Shown here in pieces: positions 36,083-64,000 of a DNA stretch of 64,000 nucleotides; the stretch's first letter is position 1, and every line of letters starts with the position of its first letter. The position numbers and the translations under genes are program-made. The notes below the pieces were generated by a model. It saw only the letters and a list, made by a program, of their open reading frames with translations, was not told where the DNA came from and did not search any database. The DNA is from Puffinus mauretanicus (lineage: Eukaryota; Chordata; Aves; Procellariiformes; Procellariidae), in contig JAJKFH010000115.1 in NCBI GenBank assembly GCA_023333565.1, forward strand, positions 186,001 to 250,000, written 5' to 3'.

Positions 36083-37260
36083 GTCTGGGTGTCCGTCTCT
36101 GCCTCCTCCTGTGGCTCCTTTTCCTGCCACCGAAGAGAAACTAGATCCTTCCAGCCAAGCCCCCGCGCCCCGGCAGCAGAGCGAGGCGCATTTGAGCTAG
36201 CTACTTCTCTTTCTTCCTTTCCTTCCTCTCAGCTACACGAGGGGAGAAGAGAGAAGAAGAAGAAGAAGAAGAAGAGAGAAAAAAAAAAAAAAAAAAAAAG
36301 CTCCTGGCTGTAGTTCCCACAGCATTTCCTCAGACTTGACATGCAGGTTTTTTTTTTTTCCCCTCTTCTTGTCCCTCCCTTTCCTTTCTCCACCCCCTTT
36401 TACAAGAAGTTTAGTCACCATGCCCACGTCCCTCCTCCTGCCGATGGGGACTGCTTTCCCGGTCCTTCTCGGCAGGGCCAGCCATCCACCTGCCTCCCAC
36501 CCTCTGCGCCCGCCCTTCCCAGCACCTGCCCTCGCCGTGCATCTGCCCTGTAACCGCCTTCTCTTCCTCGCCGCCCCCGGATATTGCCTTGCGCTGTCAG
36601 AGGACATCTTAGGCCTCGGCCATGCCTCGGATGGCCTCCCGCCTCGCGCTCTGATCCGCCCTGGCACAGCCGCCCTCCTGCCGGCACCTGCCCCCGGCAC
36701 TGGGGAAAGCCTCCTGTCCCGTCCCGTCCCCCTGTCCCATCTCTGCTCCCACGGAACAGCCCTGCGGGTGCCTGCCTTGGCGTTTTGGTGCAGCTCAAGG
36801 CCCCCCAGGTACTCTGCTTTGGCTGATGGCGGGAACTGGCAGGTGGGATTGCTGCCAGGGGAAAAGCAAAGCGGAAGACGTGCTTCGGGAGCTCTCCTAA
36901 AACACCCCGCGCCGTGCACGGGGCCAGTCCCTGGCACCTGACTGGGGACAGCGAGCGCAAAGCGGCCTCCTGCCCCCCCAAAACACAGGCGTTGCCGACA
37001 CCGCCAACCCAGCAGCAACCGCCTCGCCCGGCAAAAGAGCGGCTGCAGCTGGTGGCACGCCGTCCCAGGCCCCGTGACTTGTGAAGGGCGCAGGACTCCT
37101 CTGCGGTGGGGCAGGACAGGGCAGCGCCGCACAGCGGCACCGATTTGCGGGGTCTGAGGATCGGACAAAGCCGACCGTGTCGTTACACCACCTTCCCTGC
37201 CTCCCCGCGCTCACACGCCGCTGTGAAATGAGCCGGGAGCATGCTTCTGACTTGAGCGAA
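36083..37260 (-). promoter_or_regulatory. TNFRSF11A: TNFRSF11A 5' region: GC-rich, CpG-bearing promoter and probable 5' UTR
   Basis: Immediately upstream of the RANK start codon the base composition rises sharply and CpG dinucleotides become frequent, especially at 35.88-36.20 and 36.42-37.26 kb, compared with the AT-rich DNA beyond 38 kb. This is what a CpG-island promoter looks like. No TATA box was picked out and the start site is unknown. A purine/pyrimidine block at 36.2-36.4 kb interrupts it. Long ORFs inside it (for example minus-strand 36233-37168) are explained by GC content. Confidence 0.6.
36239..36300. repeat. 62-bp pure purine tract upstream of RANK, flanked by pyrimidine tracts
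   Basis: Every plus-strand base is A or G: a GAA-rich part followed by a run of about 20 A. It lies 157-218 bp upstream of the RANK ATG. Pyrimidine-rich tracts flank it at about 36204-36231 and 36348-36391. Bases 36269-36291 and 36348-36370 form an inverted repeat, 21 of 23 positions complementary by my count. Confidence 0.9.
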
Positions 37261-45952: not shown

Positions 45953-46073
45953 TTACTTCTTCCTCTGAAACACATTAGCCAACATTGCACCTGATGTAGT
46001 CAGCTGGCCCATTTTGTTCAAAAACTTGGTCTTTGTATCTTCACTCACAAGGCTTGCTGCAATCGACATTGAG
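45953..46073 (-). CDS. RELCH: RELCH terminal coding exon with stop
   Basis: 121 nt including the TAA at 45955-45953. The acceptor is TTCCTAG. It encodes [19 protein letters not shown], then [20 protein letters not shown] and stop, the conserved RELCH C-terminus. Its first base completes the split glycine codon. Confidence 0.95.
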
Positions 46074-52000: not shown

Positions 52001-54275
52001 TTTCTTCTCTTTTAGACAGGACTTCTATATGACTAGACAGAACCAACTACCTTATTAGAACAGATATACCACACTACGAATTGTGATTTGTTGTAGAACC
52101 TGGACATTTTTAGTCTTAAAATTATTTCATGTCTGAAGTCTAAAGTTCATTTCTAGTACACCTTTAAGAGTTGACCTGATGCTCATGTCTCAAATGGATT
52201 CAGTTCTTACTACACTCCATTCATTATCAACTACACCAGTAAACAGACTAATTACCACTAGTAAAGCTTGAGAGATTTTGTTTAGTGCATGAGAGACTGA
52301 ATCTTTTTCTACACCATGTCTCTTCTGTTCAATTCTTGTACACCTTTCCTATTTCAATTATTCTCAAAGTACCGGTTGCTTCCAGGATTTTGCCTGAGCT
52401 CTTTCAAGAAGTAAATTCTATCAATTTGTTACAGATATGGAAGCATGACATAAACAAGTTTCAGTAATTGTCTTGATTCCCATGGCAAGGTATCAGGACC
52501 GAGGACAGATTCTCATTTTCAGATACCTACTGTTTCTTCTCAAACGCTTCCTGGCAACACTGCTGAGGATTTATTAATTCATATAATAATCCATGAGAAA
52601 TTACCTGCTGGTATGCCATTCCAGGCAACAAGCAGGCAAAAGAACACATACACCTCATCATAATGGTGCTTAGCTTTCCAAATTTGTGGATCTATTAGCT
52701 TCTTTTGTTATCAGGAGAGAAGCACACACATATGATACCACCTCTACGACATGAGGCAAATTGATGCATATACTCCACGTGTCTGATGCCTCACTGGAGA
52801 GCTGGGTTTACTGGGCATTTGTAGAATAGGTGTTTTACTGAAGTGCAACATAAGTGACATTTTCCTGTATTCACACAGTTAGGCCAGTTTATACACTGGA
52901 GAAACTGTTCTCGTGTGCACTAGTCACATGCAAGCAAAGACAGCAGCCTGGAGCAGGTCATTACCATGACCAGAACAATTCTGTCAGCCTGCAGGCCACC
53001 CCCATGAAAGAGGGTTGCAAGGTGCGTGCCACATGTGTTGCTCTGAGCACTTAGGCCAAGCACTCCCTGCTTTCTCAGATTCAGGACAGAAATTGAATTA
53101 CTGCTTTAAATAGATAAACAATTAAGAAGAAAGTAACATGGGAAAACAAGAACGTCATCACTATAATACAAATAAAAGTGTGTTGTTCCGCGTTTTACAC
53201 TGCAGACAGAAACAACCACAAACTGAATTAAAGATAAAATTCCTAAAATCTGCTTTCAAATACAGAATATGTCAGTGCGGCATTTCTGGTCACAAGTCTT
53301 GGACATCACTATGGAATAGACTCTGCAGAACATTAATCTGGAGGCACAGAAAAAAGAGAAGTGGAAGTCTTACCCCTGTGGTTCTTGGACGGTCTTGTTT
53401 TCCACTTTCTGTTCACACTCTTTTATCATGGAGCTTAAAATAACCTAAGACACATAAGGAAGAGACATACATGACATTTTTTCTTTTGCATTAACGCTTT
53501 GTATGAAGTTTACTTTGCAACTAATCCTGACGTTAGCAGAACTGTTTAAAAAGTTTCTTTATTGTTTTTCAAGTGCATTTAAATTCCAGCTATCTGATAA
53601 TGCCTTGTGGCTAAAAACAACAAAACTATTCAAAATACTTTAAGGAAGAAAATGTTTTTGAAATAGTTACAGGAGTTCAAGACTCCCTCCTGCTTCCCAA
53701 AGTTTCTTAAACGCAAACTCACTGCTGTGACACACTTCCTTATCTTCCTTTTTTCAAACAATACTTTCATTTATTAGCAATTAACTTTGACATACATTCA
53801 TCTTCCCTCCATTTTCTTTTAGAGAGTTTTCAAGTACCTTTTAAAATTCATATCTTTACCAACATTATACATGAAAGAAAAAGCAAGGAAAGAAAAGAAA
53901 AAAGTGCAATGGCATCCTGAGACAACATCTTAAGGGAAAGGAAGTGCTAAAGCGAACTTCTTATCATTTCACTGGTGTCTTCCAGGGTTTCTATGAATCA
54001 AGGCTTTTTTCTTTACTTAAGCAACTGCAGCGTTAAAGGTTTCTGCAGAATATTTAAGACTAAAAACACCCCCACACTGACATTTTATATTTCTCCAGCA
54101 TGCCAAAAATAAAGGAATGTTTCCCAATAGCAGGCTTTAAAAGAAATCATACAATTCATTGGACAGGTATGTAACTCCCTGCCCGCCCACAACAGTACTG
54201 TTTTAACACATTAAGACAAAAGCATTTGAAACACTTAAGCAAAACAGTTGCAATGCAGAGTGTGAAACTATGAAC

Positions 54276-57300: not shown

Positions 57301-60300
57301 GGTTGAGGTCAGCAGAGGCTTCTGGAGGTCATCTGGTCCAACCCTCTGCTCAAGCAGGGCTACCTACAGCCAGTTGCCCAGGACCATGTCCAGACGGCTT
57401 CTGAATATCTCCCAGGATGGAGATTGCACCACCCCTCTGGGCATCCTGTGCCAGTGCTCGGTCACCCTCACAGGAAAAACGTGTTTCCTGATGTTCAGAG
57501 GGATCCCCCTGTGTTTCAATTTGTGCCCACTGCCTCTGGTCCTGTCACTGGGCACCACTGAGAAAAGCCTGGCTCCATCCTCTTTGCACCCTCTCTTCAG
57601 GTATTTATATACACTGATAAGATCCCCCCTGAGCCTTCTTTTCTCCAGGCTGAACATTCCCAGCTCTCTCAGCCTCTCCTCCTGTGAGAGATGCTCCAGT
57701 TCCTTCATCATCTTTGTGGCCCTTTGCTGGACTCTCTCCAGTAGGTGCATGCTTCTGTACTGGGGAGCCCAGAACTGGACACACCACTCCAGATACGAAG
57801 CGCATCCCATGTATTTCAGGACTATACTTTCCCCATCCTTGCCTATCATTTCTCTCCTGCACTCCACCAATTTTCATCTGCATTTCCTTGGATATATTGT
57901 GGCCATTGATTTTAGTGTATCCTTGTTTTGATGAAAAAACAGATAGCCATTTCCTTTTTCTTCAGTCTACAAGGATCTGTGTTTCAACATGTATTTCTGA
58001 CAATTGAATATTTCTCTGCAGAGGTCCTCGGCTTAGAAATACATTTTAAAAGATTTTACTGTTTTTTAAATCATGTGACCTATTCCTTATCAGAAAAACC
58101 CTCAATGCTATGTTTTCATACCACTTATGAGTAGCTCTCCTTAACTTTTGGTTTTAAAGACCATTACATTTGAACTTTTGCTGCCACCTGCATCTCATAC
58201 TCAGTAAACATAGCTGCTCACCTCATGTTCTGGCGACAGATGTTCCATGTCAGTTCGTAAACACTTAAGTCCTGGTAAAAAGTGATTGACCATTAAATCC
58301 TCTGAAATAACTAAAAACCAGGTTGTTAAGGTATTATAAGGATTGACTTCTGAAACGATACAATTTTTTTTCTGTCTTCTGATAATGCTATTCTACTGAA
58401 CACAGGGACAAGCTACAGCAGCAAAACCCAAGAAAACATAACAGCATTTGACACTTCATGACTAATAAAAAAGAAAACAGTTCTGAAATATATTTAACTT
58501 CATATATTTCATTCATCCATACTATTCTTTTAATATTTTTTTTTCATTTACTGGTTAAGATCAAGGGCATTGTTTTTGTAGCTTTTTATTTTTTTAAAGT
58601 ATCTATCACTTCCACTATATTGGGTCTGGCTGAGATGGAGTTAACTTCCCTCATAGCAGACCTCATCGTGGTGTGCTGTGTATTGGTAGCTAGAAAGGCA
58701 TTGATAACACACCCATGTTTTGGCTACTGCTGCGCAGTGCTGGCACAACATCCAGGCTGTCTCTCCAACATTCCCCCCTCACCAGTAGGCTGGGGATGGG
58801 AAAGATCTTGTGAGGGGACATAGCCAGGACAGCTGACCCAAACTGACCAACGGGATATTCCATACCATATGACATCTGCTCAGCAATAAAAGCTAAGAGA
58901 AAGGCGGGGGAGGGGCGGCATTCGTTATTACAACATTTCTCTTCCGGAGCAACTGCTATGCATATTGAAGCCCTACTTCCCGGGAAGTGGCTGGACATCA
59001 CCTGCTGATAAGAAGCAGAGAATAAATCTTTTGTCTTCTTTTGCTTCCACACGCAGCCTTTGCTTTTGCTTTATTCAACTGCCTTTATCCTGACCCACAA
59101 GTTTTTTTCCATCTTATTTTCTCCCCTCCTGTCCTGCTGAGGAGGGGAGTGACAGAGCAGCTTGGTGGGCACCTGGCATTCAGCCAAAGTCAACCCACCA
59201 CATCCACCTTCTGTGAAAACCTCTTCTTTATGCTGAGCAGATCATGTTTTACATCACACATTCAAAGACAAAATTAGTTATTTCTCAAGTATTAATCTTC
59301 TCCCCCCACCAGAGAATTAACAGCTAAACTTCCCCTAAAAAAAGGATACAACAACAGGAAAGAGCACTGTAGGCTTCAAACAGGTGGGTAGCGATATCCA
59401 GTCTCTTTGAATCCACAGACTGCTGGTTGTTGACCAAGGCTAACTTGTGCAAATGTGGAATAACAACTGTAAAAGTAAATACTGGACTAAGTATTTGAAA
59501 TTGCTTTCTGTAGACTGCTTAGCATTAAACAGTTGCTAATTGGCAACTGCAGGCATCTGAAGCATCACATCAGTGTGGAATAAGAACTGCAAATAATGGC
59601 TTTTGATGGGACTGCCTTGCGGATTTAACTGATCAACTCAAACTTGAAATAAAATTGTGGTAACACCACCTAAAATAAAAAGGTACCTTAGAGTACCTTT
59701 GAAATAGTAACAGTTTACAGAAAATATTTTGCAACATTATTACTCTCCTGCTGCTAAAGCTGTCTAAAATATGCTTCTATTTGATAAATACAGCTGATAA
59801 GCTAGTGACAGAGATATGCATGTCATGAGAAATCTTCACTGACTATAGAGGAAGCCTATTTAATGAAGTTAGCCTGCTAAACTAGATGAATGCAGTTGGG
59901 AGGCACGATAGCTCCTCACATTTTGTTTACAAGTATCTTAAAAACAGTCTTAATCAACTTTGCTCTTCTATGTGCTTTACATTTCAGAGCCATGAAAAAA
60001 AGCTGTTTTGTTAATCTGGGATGCACTTACATTCAAGATGTGTGGAATACTTGAAATTTATATGCTAGCAGGGGGTGAAGCAATGGGGGAGGGGTGGGGA
60101 GAGGAAGGCATTTTACATGTCAAGTAATTAAAAAAAAGACAACTTCAAATTTGCTCTGCAACAAAGTGAACAGTCCCCTCCGGCTCTGAAATCATTCATC
60201 AGCATGCGCTGGTGTTCTATATACACACCAAAGTTAGTTAAAGTGAAAATTATATTAGCAAAGTCTTAAATACTGGCACATATCAAACTCTGAAAACAAG

Positions 60301-63220
60301 AATTTTCATCAAACTTTTTGTAAAGACGAAGAAAAAAAAAATCAATGTAACCAGCGTATTATTAGCTTTGGGACAGAAAGAGGAAGACTGCATCTTCCCA
60401 CTGATGCAACTTACATTCATCTCTAAATCTGGGCTCAGCATTAGGTCCAACTCTTCCAAATGTTTTTATGATTTCTGTATGTAGAGAATGTTGGTCTTGA
60501 TACTGAGGGTCCTCCAGGAAAGATGCCAGCTGCATTTTTACTCTTTCCAGAAGCTTAAATATTTCCAGAGAAATAAAAAGTACACAAAGGAATGAAGAAG
60601 CTAAAAACCGTTATGGTCAGTTCAGAGTATTTCTATAACCTTCCATATTTCAGATGATAAACCTTGGACCTTCTGTTAATTTACATTTTTTTCTGACAGG
60701 ATGTTCCAAACTCTTCGATGCAGCTCTACATTTTAAAGACTGTTAACAGTGTTTTAGTCTGATCTATCTTTAATTATAGACAGGTGCTTCCATATAGCCG
60801 GTCTTTCCTCCTGAGGTTTCCTTGGTGTTGATACTCACATTTTTCTACCTGATATTAAAATTTCCCTCTCACTATTAATAACTTTGGAGTTTTCCTCTTT
60901 AATTAGAACTGAATTCACGTTTTTTTTTTTGTAATATATCTCAATTACATATGCTCAATTTCTGCAGAGGACAGATGCAAAAGTTAGCATCATAAAATCA
61001 ATGGAATTAAAAAGATTTCTTCAACTAAAGGCTAGAGAAACTGAAAATACAAATATATCTAAGATGACATAAGTATTTAATTTGTATTTAAAGTTGTAAA
61101 AATAACATTTCCTGATACATTTGGGAAGGCGATATTACCTCTGTACTCCAAGGCTTATTATAATTAGTGCAATGGATATCGTAATTTTTGTGTGGTAACA
61201 AAACAGTATTCCTCCCAAACTGATTATAGGCATGCATTCCAAGCTACAAAATTGTAACTTATCCATCTTCCAAGTACTTGTGAGTCATCACTGACTTCTT
61301 ACTCACATTTCCTCAAACACATTCTTTTAGAATATGTTGAAATTACAGGAAGAATGCAAGCTCTGCAAAAAGCTGCAAGGAGTTTAAGAAGAAATTTGAT
61401 TGTACAGTTATTATATAAACCAAAATACAGTATTTCTACTGCTTACAGCAGAATCCTGGGTGTCTTTTTCTGAATTCTGATTGATTACCGAAGTTTCATC
61501 ATTTAAAAAGCAAGGAGGAATTGCATATCTGTATTATCCTCAAGGATTATTTCAGTTATGTCACTATGATGTCTTTTAATGCCATTTTGGACACCATAGG
61601 CTAAACCAGCAGATATGACAGGAACTACAAGAGATGTGCCCTTCTAAAGTAGTTGGAAGCCAAGCAGGATATCCTAAAGCATCTAAAATGGTACAATACG
61701 CTTATGTGGAGGTAACTGAATCCCACCATGACTTTTTGGTTAGCATTTTAAAGTAAAGCTATTTTATTTGGAAATAATGGATTTCTCAACTGTATTGGAG
61801 AATGTTTTAAAAAACATTTTGAGCACGGGATTTCCCATCTTCTAGCACAGGCCTCCCCCTCTACATATCTGTTTTTCTTTGTTTATATTTGGTTTGATAT
61901 TTAGAAGGAAATGTTTTTATTAGTTAAAAGAGGGTTGGTTTGTTTAAAAAAAAAAAAAAAGACCATTGCAAAATTGGAAACATTGCATTTTGGAAGAGGA
62001 TATAACAAAGGAAGAAATAATTTAAGTTGCTTTTTTTTTCCCCTCCAAGTTCATTAATAAATTACTGGATTTCTGGATTTATAAAAAATCACCCACTTCT
62101 TATGCTACAAAACCAACAGCCTAACAACATGTGTCTTACCTCTCTCTGAGTAACAGTTTCCATGATGGTCCCAAAAGCAGGAATTGTTGCAATCCTTACT
62201 GAACTACAACAGAAAAATAGAGTCTTTAAGATGTATTAAACATTAAGAATAAAATTAATTAAAAATAAAGCAAAATTTAAAAATTAGTACTTTAAGTTAC
62301 ATTAGTTTCTAGCAATGACAAAACAAAAAAAGCAGACCAGGAAAAAGACAGACAGGATTAACTCAAGGTCTCAATCTGAAACTCACAATTCAGGATCACT
62401 GGACAAGGTAACAAGGGCCGGAGCAACCCGCTTGTCAACTAAGGCTTCACTCATGCCTCGAAGAGTCAGCTGTAAACCAGTCAACATGCAATAAAAAATG
62501 GTTTGGTAAAATTGAAGAACTGGGTTAGCTGTGACTGAGGACGGGCAGGTAAGACTCTTGGGGTTTTTCTTGGTTTAGTCACCCACACAAGACATTAAAA
62601 CAATTAAGACTCTATTCATGCTGTGGCATTTATTAGTAACAACCTGTTAGTGAGATTAGCAAAGCATCCCTCCTTAGCTTGAAAGAAATACCACATCAGA
62701 ATGTCCAGGAAATTAAGTACTACGGTTGTCTATCAGAAATTATACAGCCAAAACTATTTTGTACATCACTAATGCAGATGATATTTAATTTTGCAGTAGT
62801 AAAGCTGATAGCATTACAGAACATATTAATATCCAGCTTTCTGCTAGAAATTATGGAAGCAAATTTCAAAAACAAGAATATGATTAAATATAAAAACCCA
62901 TAAAAATTAAATGACATTGATTTAAGTTTTCTATTTAAACTTTATTCAGCAGTTTTATCCAGTTTAGTTCTAGGTGTTGCAATAAACCTTTTTATTTACA
63001 AATAAGTAATTTAAAAGTTACATTTGTTTAAAAGTAATTCAATTTTTGTTCAGCTAGAATAAGAAACAGAACTGATGGTTATTTCTTCCTAAGTATTAAG
63101 AGGGATGCTAGGTATATAAGACAGTCAGGAAACTTACATTTCAGGGTCACTGGAGAGAGTAATGAGAGCAGGAACAACTCTCTGAGCTACCAGAGTTTCA
63201 TGTACCCCCTTCACCAACAG
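45953..63220 (-). CDS. RELCH: RELCH (KIAA1468), C-terminal exons; 5' part outside the window
   Basis: RELCH binds Rab11 on recycling endosomes and OSBP at the trans-Golgi network, and promotes cholesterol transfer between them. It has an N-terminal LisH motif, coiled coil and C-terminal HEAT repeats. Only the HEAT-region C-terminus is here. Exons in transcription order are 63138-63220 or 62387-62469 (alternatives), then 62140-62203, 60415-60553, 59350-59466, 58222-58310, 53374-53444 and 45953-46073. With one alternative exon they give 684 nt, or 227 residues plus stop, in one frame with GT/AG sites throughout. The translation is nearly the same as the human C-terminus as I recall it (for example [17 protein letters not shown] and NVFQRKK at the end). 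The gene sits upstream of TNFRSF11A on the same strand, as in human. Confidence 0.93.
46438..46850 (-). mobile_element. Old CR1/L3-like LINE relic in RELCH last intron
   Basis: The plus strand shows landmarks of a tetrapod-wide CR1/L3-type 3' end read backwards: ATAAGAACA, then TACTGGTTCACACCAAGGAT, ATCTAGCCCA and CCGACAGTGACCA. Later come a GTAAAGAGCTTTCTCCTTCT-like block and GTGACTCCTACTACC. It is highly diverged with gaps, so the family name is tentative. Confidence 0.6.
47078..47699 (+). mobile_element. CR1 LINE 3' end, antisense in RELCH last intron
   Basis: A 5'-truncated copy of the same subfamily as 21734-22335. The 178-aa ORF runs from [17 protein letters not shown] through [20 protein letters not shown] to [20 protein letters not shown]. 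It keeps the segment missing from the other copy. It ends in the octamer tail TTAATGATTCTATGATTCTAT. Confidence 0.94.
48181..48231. repeat. Short tandem duplication in RELCH last intron
   Basis: The unit TAATTGTATCATAACAA occurs twice, separated by TTAATTGTTAAT-type sequence. Confidence 0.8.
48865..49440 (+). mobile_element. Solo LTR of an endogenous retrovirus (ERVL-like), in RELCH last intron
   Basis: A 576-bp element beginning TGTCCTGGTTTCAGCTGGGA and ending ACCACAACA, flanked by the 5-bp direct repeat TACTT (48860-48864 and 49441-49445). A TATAAAG box lies near 49120. No internal retroviral genes are present, so it is a solo LTR left by recombination. Five-bp duplications fit class III (ERVL), an inference from length alone. 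Antisense to RELCH. Confidence 0.9.
53374..53444 (-). CDS. RELCH: RELCH exon: [17 protein letters not shown]
   Basis: 71 nt, acceptor TCTTAG, donor GTAAGA. It encodes [20 protein letters not shown] and EPQ plus a split glycine codon, the penultimate exon. Phase 0 in, phase 2 out. It is followed by an intron of 7.3 kb holding a CR1, an old CR1/L3-like relic and a solo LTR. Confidence 0.93.
54276..54311. repeat. (AT)n(AC)n microsatellite
   Basis: A compound dinucleotide run, about 9 AT units then about 9 AC units, in a RELCH intron. Confidence 0.95.
57285..57868 (-). mobile_element. CR1 LINE 3' end in RELCH intron (different subfamily)
   Basis: On the minus strand a 168-aa open frame carries [36 protein letters not shown], and then [10 protein letters not shown] near the end. 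It ends in the complement of CACAGAATCACAGAATGG at 57285-57302. The sequence differs from the 21734 and 47078 copies (for example [16 protein letters not shown]), so it is another CR1 subfamily. Sense to RELCH. Confidence 0.92.
58222..58310 (-). CDS. RELCH: RELCH exon: HEAT-repeat segment [14 protein letters not shown]
   Basis: 89 nt, acceptor TTTTTAG, donor GTGAGC. It encodes [20 protein letters not shown] followed by MEHLSPEHE. Phase 1 in, phase 0 out. An alternative acceptor a few bases downstream (TTTCAG) would break the frame, so the upstream AG was chosen. Confidence 0.93.
58616..59202 (+). mobile_element. Solo LTR, 148 bp from a RELCH exon
   Basis: A 587-bp element that reads TATATTGGGTCTGGCTGAGA at the start and CAACCCACCACA at the end, flanked by the 5-bp repeat TCCAC (58611-58615 and 59203-59207). 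The usual TG start appears as TA, a likely mutation. It shares the stretches AGCCAGGACAGCTGACCCAA and ATATTCCATACCATATGA, with small changes, with the LTR at 48865, so the two are related. An AATAAA lies near 59021. Antisense to RELCH, with no internal genes. Confidence 0.85.
59350..59466 (-). CDS. RELCH: RELCH exon: HEAT-repeat segment [11 protein letters not shown]
   Basis: 117 nt, acceptor TTTACAG, donor GTATCC. It encodes [20 protein letters not shown] and then [18 protein letters not shown]. The donor is non-consensus after GTAT, but only this position restores CCFISEDLM with the next exon. A solo LTR ends about 150 bp beyond the donor in the following intron. Confidence 0.92.
60415..60553 (-). 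CDS. RELCH: RELCH exon: HEAT-repeat segment [16 protein letters not shown]
   Basis: 139 nt, acceptor TTTAAG (a weak, purine-flanked site), donor GTAAGT. The translation runs from [16 protein letters not shown] through [19 protein letters not shown] to RDE with a split phenylalanine codon. It is very like human RELCH. Phase 0 in, phase 1 out. Confidence 0.94.
60554..62139 (-). other. RELCH: RELCH intron (1.6 kb)
   Basis: AT-rich, with an A run near 61947-61961 and T runs. No exon or named repeat seen. Confidence 0.65.
62140..62203 (-). CDS. RELCH: RELCH exon: HEAT-repeat segment [10 protein letters not shown]
   Basis: 64 nt, acceptor TTGTAG, donor GTAAGA. It encodes [20 protein letters not shown] plus a final glutamate, a typical HEAT helix. 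The first base completes the split codon left by either alternative exon. Phase 2 in, phase 0 out. It lies 183 bp from exon A. Confidence 0.92.
62387..62469 (-). CDS. RELCH: RELCH alternative exon A (downstream copy of duplicated exon)
   Basis: 83 nt, acceptor GTTTACAG, donor GTGAGT, phase 0 in and phase 2 out. It reads [20 protein letters not shown] and ends TLSSDPE plus a split codon that becomes phenylalanine. It has the same length and phases as exon B, 668 bp away. Splicing both together would add 166 nt and shift the frame. The reading frame and both splice sites are intact, so it does not look like a dead exon. Confidence 0.88.
63138..63220 (-). CDS. RELCH: RELCH alternative exon B (upstream copy of duplicated exon)
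   Basis: 83 nt, acceptor CATTCAG, donor GTAAGT, phase 0 in and phase 2 out. It reads [20 protein letters not shown] and ends TLSSDPE plus a split codon that becomes isoleucine. It is homologous to exon A at 62387-62469, with 17 of 27 whole codons giving identical residues. It encodes one HEAT-repeat helix pair. Its donor phase fits the 62140-62203 exon directly, so it can replace exon A. Confidence 0.88.
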
Positions 63221-64000
63221 CTGAATGGTCGGAGCAGGGGGGTATCACAGGTGATGCACGGAAAGAGCGAGCACAGTATCATGGGAAGAAGAACGGCACA
63301 ACCAAGAGAGAGAAAGAAAAAAACACAAAAAGCAAACCAAAATTAGAAGCTAAGCAAATACTGCTACACTAGTGCTTCATATATGCAAAGGCATGAAGAA
63401 AGCTGAAGTGGTCTGGCAATCAGCACAAACCTGACAAATTCAACAATATGATAATGTTTTCTCTATTTTCAGCTATTTTAAAACTTGAACTCTCAACAGT
63501 TTAGCAAGTAATTATGTATTGTAATTCAAATTCTAATATAATTATGTATTATAATGATGTATAGTTAAATACTAAAGCGATGCAAATTTGAGTTTGACAG
63601 TTTAATCTAAATGCTGTCCCTAACTCAATGGAATGGTACTTGTTATAGTAGGTGGCTGTCACATGCAAAAGAGACGTCTTTAGCTAGGCCAAATGCGTGT
63701 AGTTTTCCCGCATGATCCCGAGTGATACCTTTCAGACCTTTTACAGTGTGACAAACAGCACCTTCGCACATGCCACTAAGCTTTCCTCATTCAGGACTAT
63801 TTTAGATTTAACCGCCATCCAGGCAGTATGTATGTGAAAATTCCCAAGTTTCCCTTGTTGGTCTATGCAGGTAGAAAATGGAGAATCCTTGGATTATCCA
63901 TGAAATGTATTTCACTAAGTCTCTTTGCAAACTAAGGAAGAGATGTATTTCTTGCAATACATCCCAAATGTTAAAAGCTGAGATCACAGTGAAGTTTATT
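63221..64000 (-). other. RELCH: RELCH intron continuing past the window edge
   Basis: Upstream of alternative exon B. No further exon and no third copy of the duplicated exon was recognised up to the edge. Confidence 0.5.

Follow-up and report, generated by a model that had tools for sequence, protein, structure and literature searches.

An ancient tandem-duplicated exon pair in the RELCH gene of Puffinus mauretanicus, probably mutually exclusive in use

The DNA considered here is a 64,000-nt stretch of the Puffinus mauretanicus genome (the window: GCA_023333565.1, contig JAJKFH010000115.1, positions 186,001 to 250,000, forward strand), and the element in question is a pair of 83-nt exons, A and B, within the gene RELCH (KIAA1468). 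The gene was recognized by exons that match bird protein P0002 from position 129058 down to 45953 (window numbering is used throughout); the portion above 64000 was taken from the same genome, outside the window, and some exons were not resolved. Features are listed in Table 1. Based on the evidence below, A and B very likely represent an ancient mutually exclusive exon pair in RELCH, with a probability of about 0.9, and it is almost beyond doubt that they are tandem-duplicated coding exons with an exclusive coding design.

Both exons enter in phase 0 and leave in phase 2; aligned to each other, they are identical at 50 of 83 bases and at 17 of 27 residues. Their splice sites were read by consensus only: the acceptor of A is ...ACCATTCAG and its donor GTAAGT, while B has the acceptor ...GGTTTACAG and the donor GTGAGT. 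The coordinates, lengths, phases, splice sites and identity given in a preliminary description of this locus were all reproduced. Including the codon completed across the next junction (Ile with A, Phe with B), the two differ at 11 of 28 encoded residues. Across 144 kb and both strands there are 259 open segments of the form AG|83 nt|GT, and the best match to A or B among the other 257 is 5/27, so that a chance resemblance is excluded. The proportion of synonymous differences between the copies (pS) is 0.80, i.e., saturated, and the non-synonymous divergence (dN) is 0.30, values expected of copies that separated long ago and have since been constrained at the protein level. A six-frame scan of the 144 kb in 27-residue windows revealed no third copy; besides A and B themselves, two windows reach 10 matches, and each has a stop. 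The 28-residue A segment is identical in turtle and bird proteins, and the B segment is identical in falcon protein P0046.

The reading frame permits one copy at a time. Either A or B alone joins both neighbours in frame, and the phases bear out the earlier statement that each copy connects properly to the next exon. When A is spliced to B, translation of A+B+C ends at a TGA formed by bases 2-4 of B; an mRNA that lacks both copies is out of frame and runs into stops in exon D. Since several exon junctions lie downstream of the stops produced by either error, nonsense-mediated decay (NMD) of both kinds of mRNA is expected from the known rule. The preliminary description had correctly concluded that double inclusion breaks the frame, but the 166 nt it gave as the added length applies only against an mRNA that skips both copies; against a one-exon mRNA the addition is 83 nt.

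Protein records are distributed as this logic would predict. The three protein searches yielded 502, 989 and 7 matches, of which the best 120, 120 and 7 were used, comprising 224 different proteins. Among the matches listed, the first 217 proteins include 158 of A type, 57 of B type and two with both, counts that depend on the query, the listing and clustering at 90% and should not be read as expression ratios. The two doubles, P0011 (Naja naja) and P0175 (Gymnothorax javanicus), carry at least five filler residues between the copies and are probably gene-model errors. Both types occur as separate proteins in at least eight species, among them Anas platyrhynchos (P0126 is B, P0168 is A), Ictidomys, Dasypus and Trichosurus, and further Naja naja, Canis lupus (dog and dingo counted as one species), Crocodylus porosus and Chelonoidis. 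Four multi-exon proteins with the source label 'lgn' come from contigs of 1.6-4.2 kb, two with A (P0024, P0066) and two with B (P0048, P0052); that such short contigs span several exons suggests that these proteins derive from spliced RNA. The mutually exclusive arrangement proposed earlier is thus backed by frame logic, by separate A and B proteins and by the 'lgn' records, and the remark that it might be a known isoform in mammals agrees with an A-type human protein, P0017, in nr.

The pair is old. Among the matches listed, A-type proteins come from birds, turtles, crocodilians, squamates, tuatara, mammals, amphibians, sturgeon, teleosts and shark, and B-type proteins from birds, turtles, crocodile, squamates, mammals, amphibians, Arapaima and two lampreys; a B-type sturgeon record (P0224) carries the mark 'unverified contamination'. 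From these sequences, both copies were present in the ancestor of bony vertebrates, and an earlier duplication is likely because A occurs in shark and B in lampreys, neither shark B nor lamprey A being among the matches listed. Also among the matches listed, variation is confined to 4 of 28 positions in A (162 copies, shark included) and extends to 14 of 28 in B (63 copies, clam protein P0223 left out), and while the two sets sample different lineages, the upstream copy A may be the more constrained form. At residue 7, A has His in 44 copies, every one of them under a sauropsid name, and Asn in the other 118, of which two are unnamed and the rest carry names from outside the sauropsids. The clam protein is intermediate, with 15 matches to A and 12 to B, and so does not indicate which copy is older.

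The sequence upstream of A has features seen at exons controlled by PTB-family proteins. As a yardstick, 26 fitted RELCH acceptors were used, the first exon and residues ~577-630 not being represented; one of the 26, at 101733, is probably misplaced, as the match begins at residue 379 but the fitted exon only at 394. The 129-nt AG exclusion zone before A is the joint largest of the 26, with one tie, and just two of 1537 CAG sites on the window's minus strand, A included, reach 129 AG-free nt. Within the zone, CTAAT is the sole yUnAy match and directly precedes a long U/C tract. With a chosen set of PTB-type tetramers, the 120 nt before A contain 21, which ranks first of the 26 acceptors (the next has 14, B has 4) and is reached by ~0.2% of random 120-mers. 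The single UGCAUG before B hints at repression by RBFOX. In a human genome survey, 838 of 67,334 introns had AG exclusion zones of at least 100 nt, and all distant-branch-point exons that were analysed by experiment were PTB-regulated (PMC1431707). A prediction also exists for the mouse gene 2310035C23Rik, which is RELCH (PMC5940305): Table 1 of a 2014 paper lists chr1:107637012-107637094 as PTBP1-repressed (p 0.87), and 7 of 10 high-scoring exons tested in that work responded in reverse-transcription PCR (PMC3907290). By its coordinates that exon is 83 nt long, a length that only A and B have among the 26 RELCH exons. Taken together, these signals tip the balance modestly towards PTB-type control of exon A.

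The acceptor that ties with A belongs to the 72-nt RELCH exon VLEFELRKAKETIQALRANLTQAA (L006:1452-1523, window-equivalent 105523-105452, minus strand), likewise preceded by an AG exclusion zone of 129 nt. Skipping this exon would yield VAEHEVPLQER, a peptide reported for skipped RELCH exon 3 in human cortex (PMC8609283), so that both of the largest zones among the 26 acceptors precede alternative exons.

As to what the swap might do, the exchanged residues correspond to ~990-1017 of the 1216 in RELCH, located by counting 227 residues back from the C-terminus. The RELCH fragment 904-1142 binds OSBP, and Rab11 binding needs residues 497-779 (PMC5940305). The swap is therefore placed in the OSBP-binding part and outside the Rab11-binding part. 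Of the two partners suggested in the preliminary description, 'Rab11 or OSBP', Rab11 was set aside and OSBP retained. Position within the OSBP-binding region makes an altered OSBP contact the most likely effect of the swap, by inference, and a functional difference between the isoforms in OSBP binding is put forward tentatively, as a possibility that may well prove wrong. In P0002 the exon encodes residues 933-960 and a Pfam HEAT match covers 947-976; the match is found in both full-length isoforms. Going by the general layout of the HEAT family, the exon segment should comprise the end of one HEAT helix, a loop and the opening helix of the repeat that follows.

Several points weigh against this interpretation in one part or another. 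The evidence for separate A and B isoforms consists of protein records, most of which look like gene models, and not of junction reads. The PTB and branch-point motifs were read from one genome, and only an estimated one-half to one-fifth of large AG exclusion zones reflect distant branch points (PMC1431707). The zone before the 72-nt exon has two PTB-type tetramers in 120 nt, so a large zone alone does not imply PTB control. The UGCAUG hexamer is found within 300 nt upstream of 5 of the 26 exons (C by way of B's site) and within 300 nt downstream of 5 of the 26. The mouse exon may correspond to either A or B, and the value given for it was predicted from sequence; in the section of PMC3907290 drawn on here, nothing says that this exon was itself among those assayed. 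On the protein side, the 134-residue pieces taken by themselves match HEAT below the Pfam cut-off, and the AlphaFold models are too poor to place the swapped residues, with a mean predicted local distance difference test score (pLDDT) of 42.0 for P0002 (A) and 42.1 for P0046 (B), and block means across the swapped segment of 34-36 (A) and 29-38 (B).

A competing explanation is that exclusion is passive: the A/B ratio would be fixed or vary weakly, NMD would clear doubles and skips, and there would be two equivalent isoforms and no tissue switch. Frame logic by itself would yield the observed pattern, and 377 (60%) of the human clusters contain exons of a length not divisible by three (PMC5740500). 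This explanation is nevertheless rather unlikely: A has hardly changed between shark and mammal and has stayed different from B, which fits the retention of distinct roles, and both the first-ranking motif count before A and the predicted PTBP1 target of the same length in mouse speak for regulation. A mechanical basis, whether steric clash, U2/U12 incompatibility or competing RNA stems, has precedents (PMC5740500, PMC7969005) but is very improbable here. For steric clash the branch point of B should lie within ~50 nt of the donor of A, and the 668-nt intron together with the AG-free zone of just 50 nt before B makes such a position unlikely; both donors are U2-type by eye; and at a threshold of at least 12 nt, the region 62150-63500 holds three imperfect inverted repeats of 12-15 nt and no convincing long docking or selector stems. 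That one copy is dead or unused in this bird is the least credible proposal: each copy has an open frame and a strong donor, and although synonymous sites between the copies are saturated, each peptide recurs without change in other birds and in turtles or crocodile.

Returning to regulated mutual exclusion, a working model can be outlined. Exclusion would not be steric, the intron between the copies being too long. PTB-family proteins would act on the long pyrimidine tract that follows the distant branch point and so repress A, leaving B as the default at high PTBP1 levels; A would be used where PTBP1 falls, probably in neurons or muscle, possibly assisted by RBFOX repression of B, and NMD would clear mis-spliced products. 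The swap would most likely tune the OSBP contact, and thereby sterol transfer between recycling endosomes and the trans-Golgi network. If regulated in this way, the pair would connect OSBP-dependent cholesterol transfer with a programme of neuronal splicing through an 11-residue change in one tether, and the A and B isoforms would allow a clean comparison of binding and lipid transfer.

The pair belongs to a well-known kind, and public protein databases already contain both forms. In human, 236 tandem duplicated exon substitution events have been annotated, more than 90% of which have orthologous events in teleosts (PMC9741552). The RELCH copies resemble these in being adjacent, homologous and ancient, with one per isoform and a homologous peptide swapped; the main text of that paper does not mention RELCH. 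With alpha-tropomyosin exon 3, alpha-actinin and PTB exon 11 (PMC1431707), exon A shares a large zone, a branch-point match at its 5' edge and a long pyrimidine tract; unlike those PTB-regulated distant-branch-point exons, its branch point is known only as a consensus match. The intron that contains the candidate branch point of A is 4283 nt long, and the site is well away from the upstream donor, unlike in the tropomyosin case. The mouse exon of PMC3907290 is from the same gene and of the same length but is listed as a cassette, a partner exon not being discussed in that section. Among HEAT proteins, the PP2A scaffold PR65/A gives a weak match that takes in the swapped segment (E 8.6e-06 over the whole sequence, none of the individual stretches being significant on its own); it is not an ortholog of RELCH, and no alternative exon is claimed for it.

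A published account of the A/B pair was not found in the literature on RELCH, KIAA1468 or 2310035C23Rik, covered largely at the level of listings and exclusive of supplements. By word search, RELCH and KIAA1468 are absent from the main texts of PMC9741552, PMC5740500, PMC7561204, PMC7954323 and PMC5224494, and KIAA1468 is absent from PMC1431707; in PMC11203723 the Relch transcript is named only in a table. No relative was found in the viral contigs searched. The main text of PMC5940305 has no word starting with 'splic' or 'variant', and its lone 'isoform' is in a reference title, so which form of RELCH was studied there, and whether the other form behaves alike, remains a testable question.

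Table 1. Exons, introns and candidate splicing signals of RELCH around the A/B pair (window numbering).
Feature	Position	Strand	Remarks
Upstream exon	67603-67504	-	outside the window; ends on codon boundary
Long U/C-rich tract with PTB-type motifs	63276..63341	-	limits by eye
Candidate distant branch point CTAAT	63342..63346	-	A at 63343, -123; consensus match
AG exclusion zone upstream of A	63221..63349	-	129 nt
Exon A	63138..63220	-	upstream copy; 83 nt, 27 codons + 2 nt
Intron between A and B	62470..63137	-	668 nt
UGCAUG, RBFOX-type motif	62485..62490	-	single hexamer, 16-21 nt upstream of B
Exon B	62387..62469	-	downstream copy; 83 nt, 27 codons + 2 nt
TGA stop when A is spliced to B	62466..62468	-	bases 2-4 of B; translation of A+B+C
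Common downstream exon C	62140..62203	-	64 nt, 21 residues; completes codon left by A or B
Exon D	60415..60553	-	139 nt
Exon E	59350..59466	-	117 nt
Exon F	58222..58310	-	89 nt
Exon G	53374..53444	-	71 nt
Last coding exon H, with stop	45953..46073	-	

For exon F, the automatic fit had placed the donor at 58218; this was dropped in favour of 58222, where the exon ends in EHE, the donor is GTGAGC and the frame into exon G is kept.

Two other open frames lie in the window, both on the minus strand, and neither has a Pfam match at E 0.01. The first, of 169 aa (57367-57873), falls within the intron that separates exon F from exon G and looks like a common avian repeat. The second, of 325 aa (36236-37210), is downstream of RELCH and overlaps a G+C-rich stretch (68% at 36500-36999) that could be the CpG island of the next gene.

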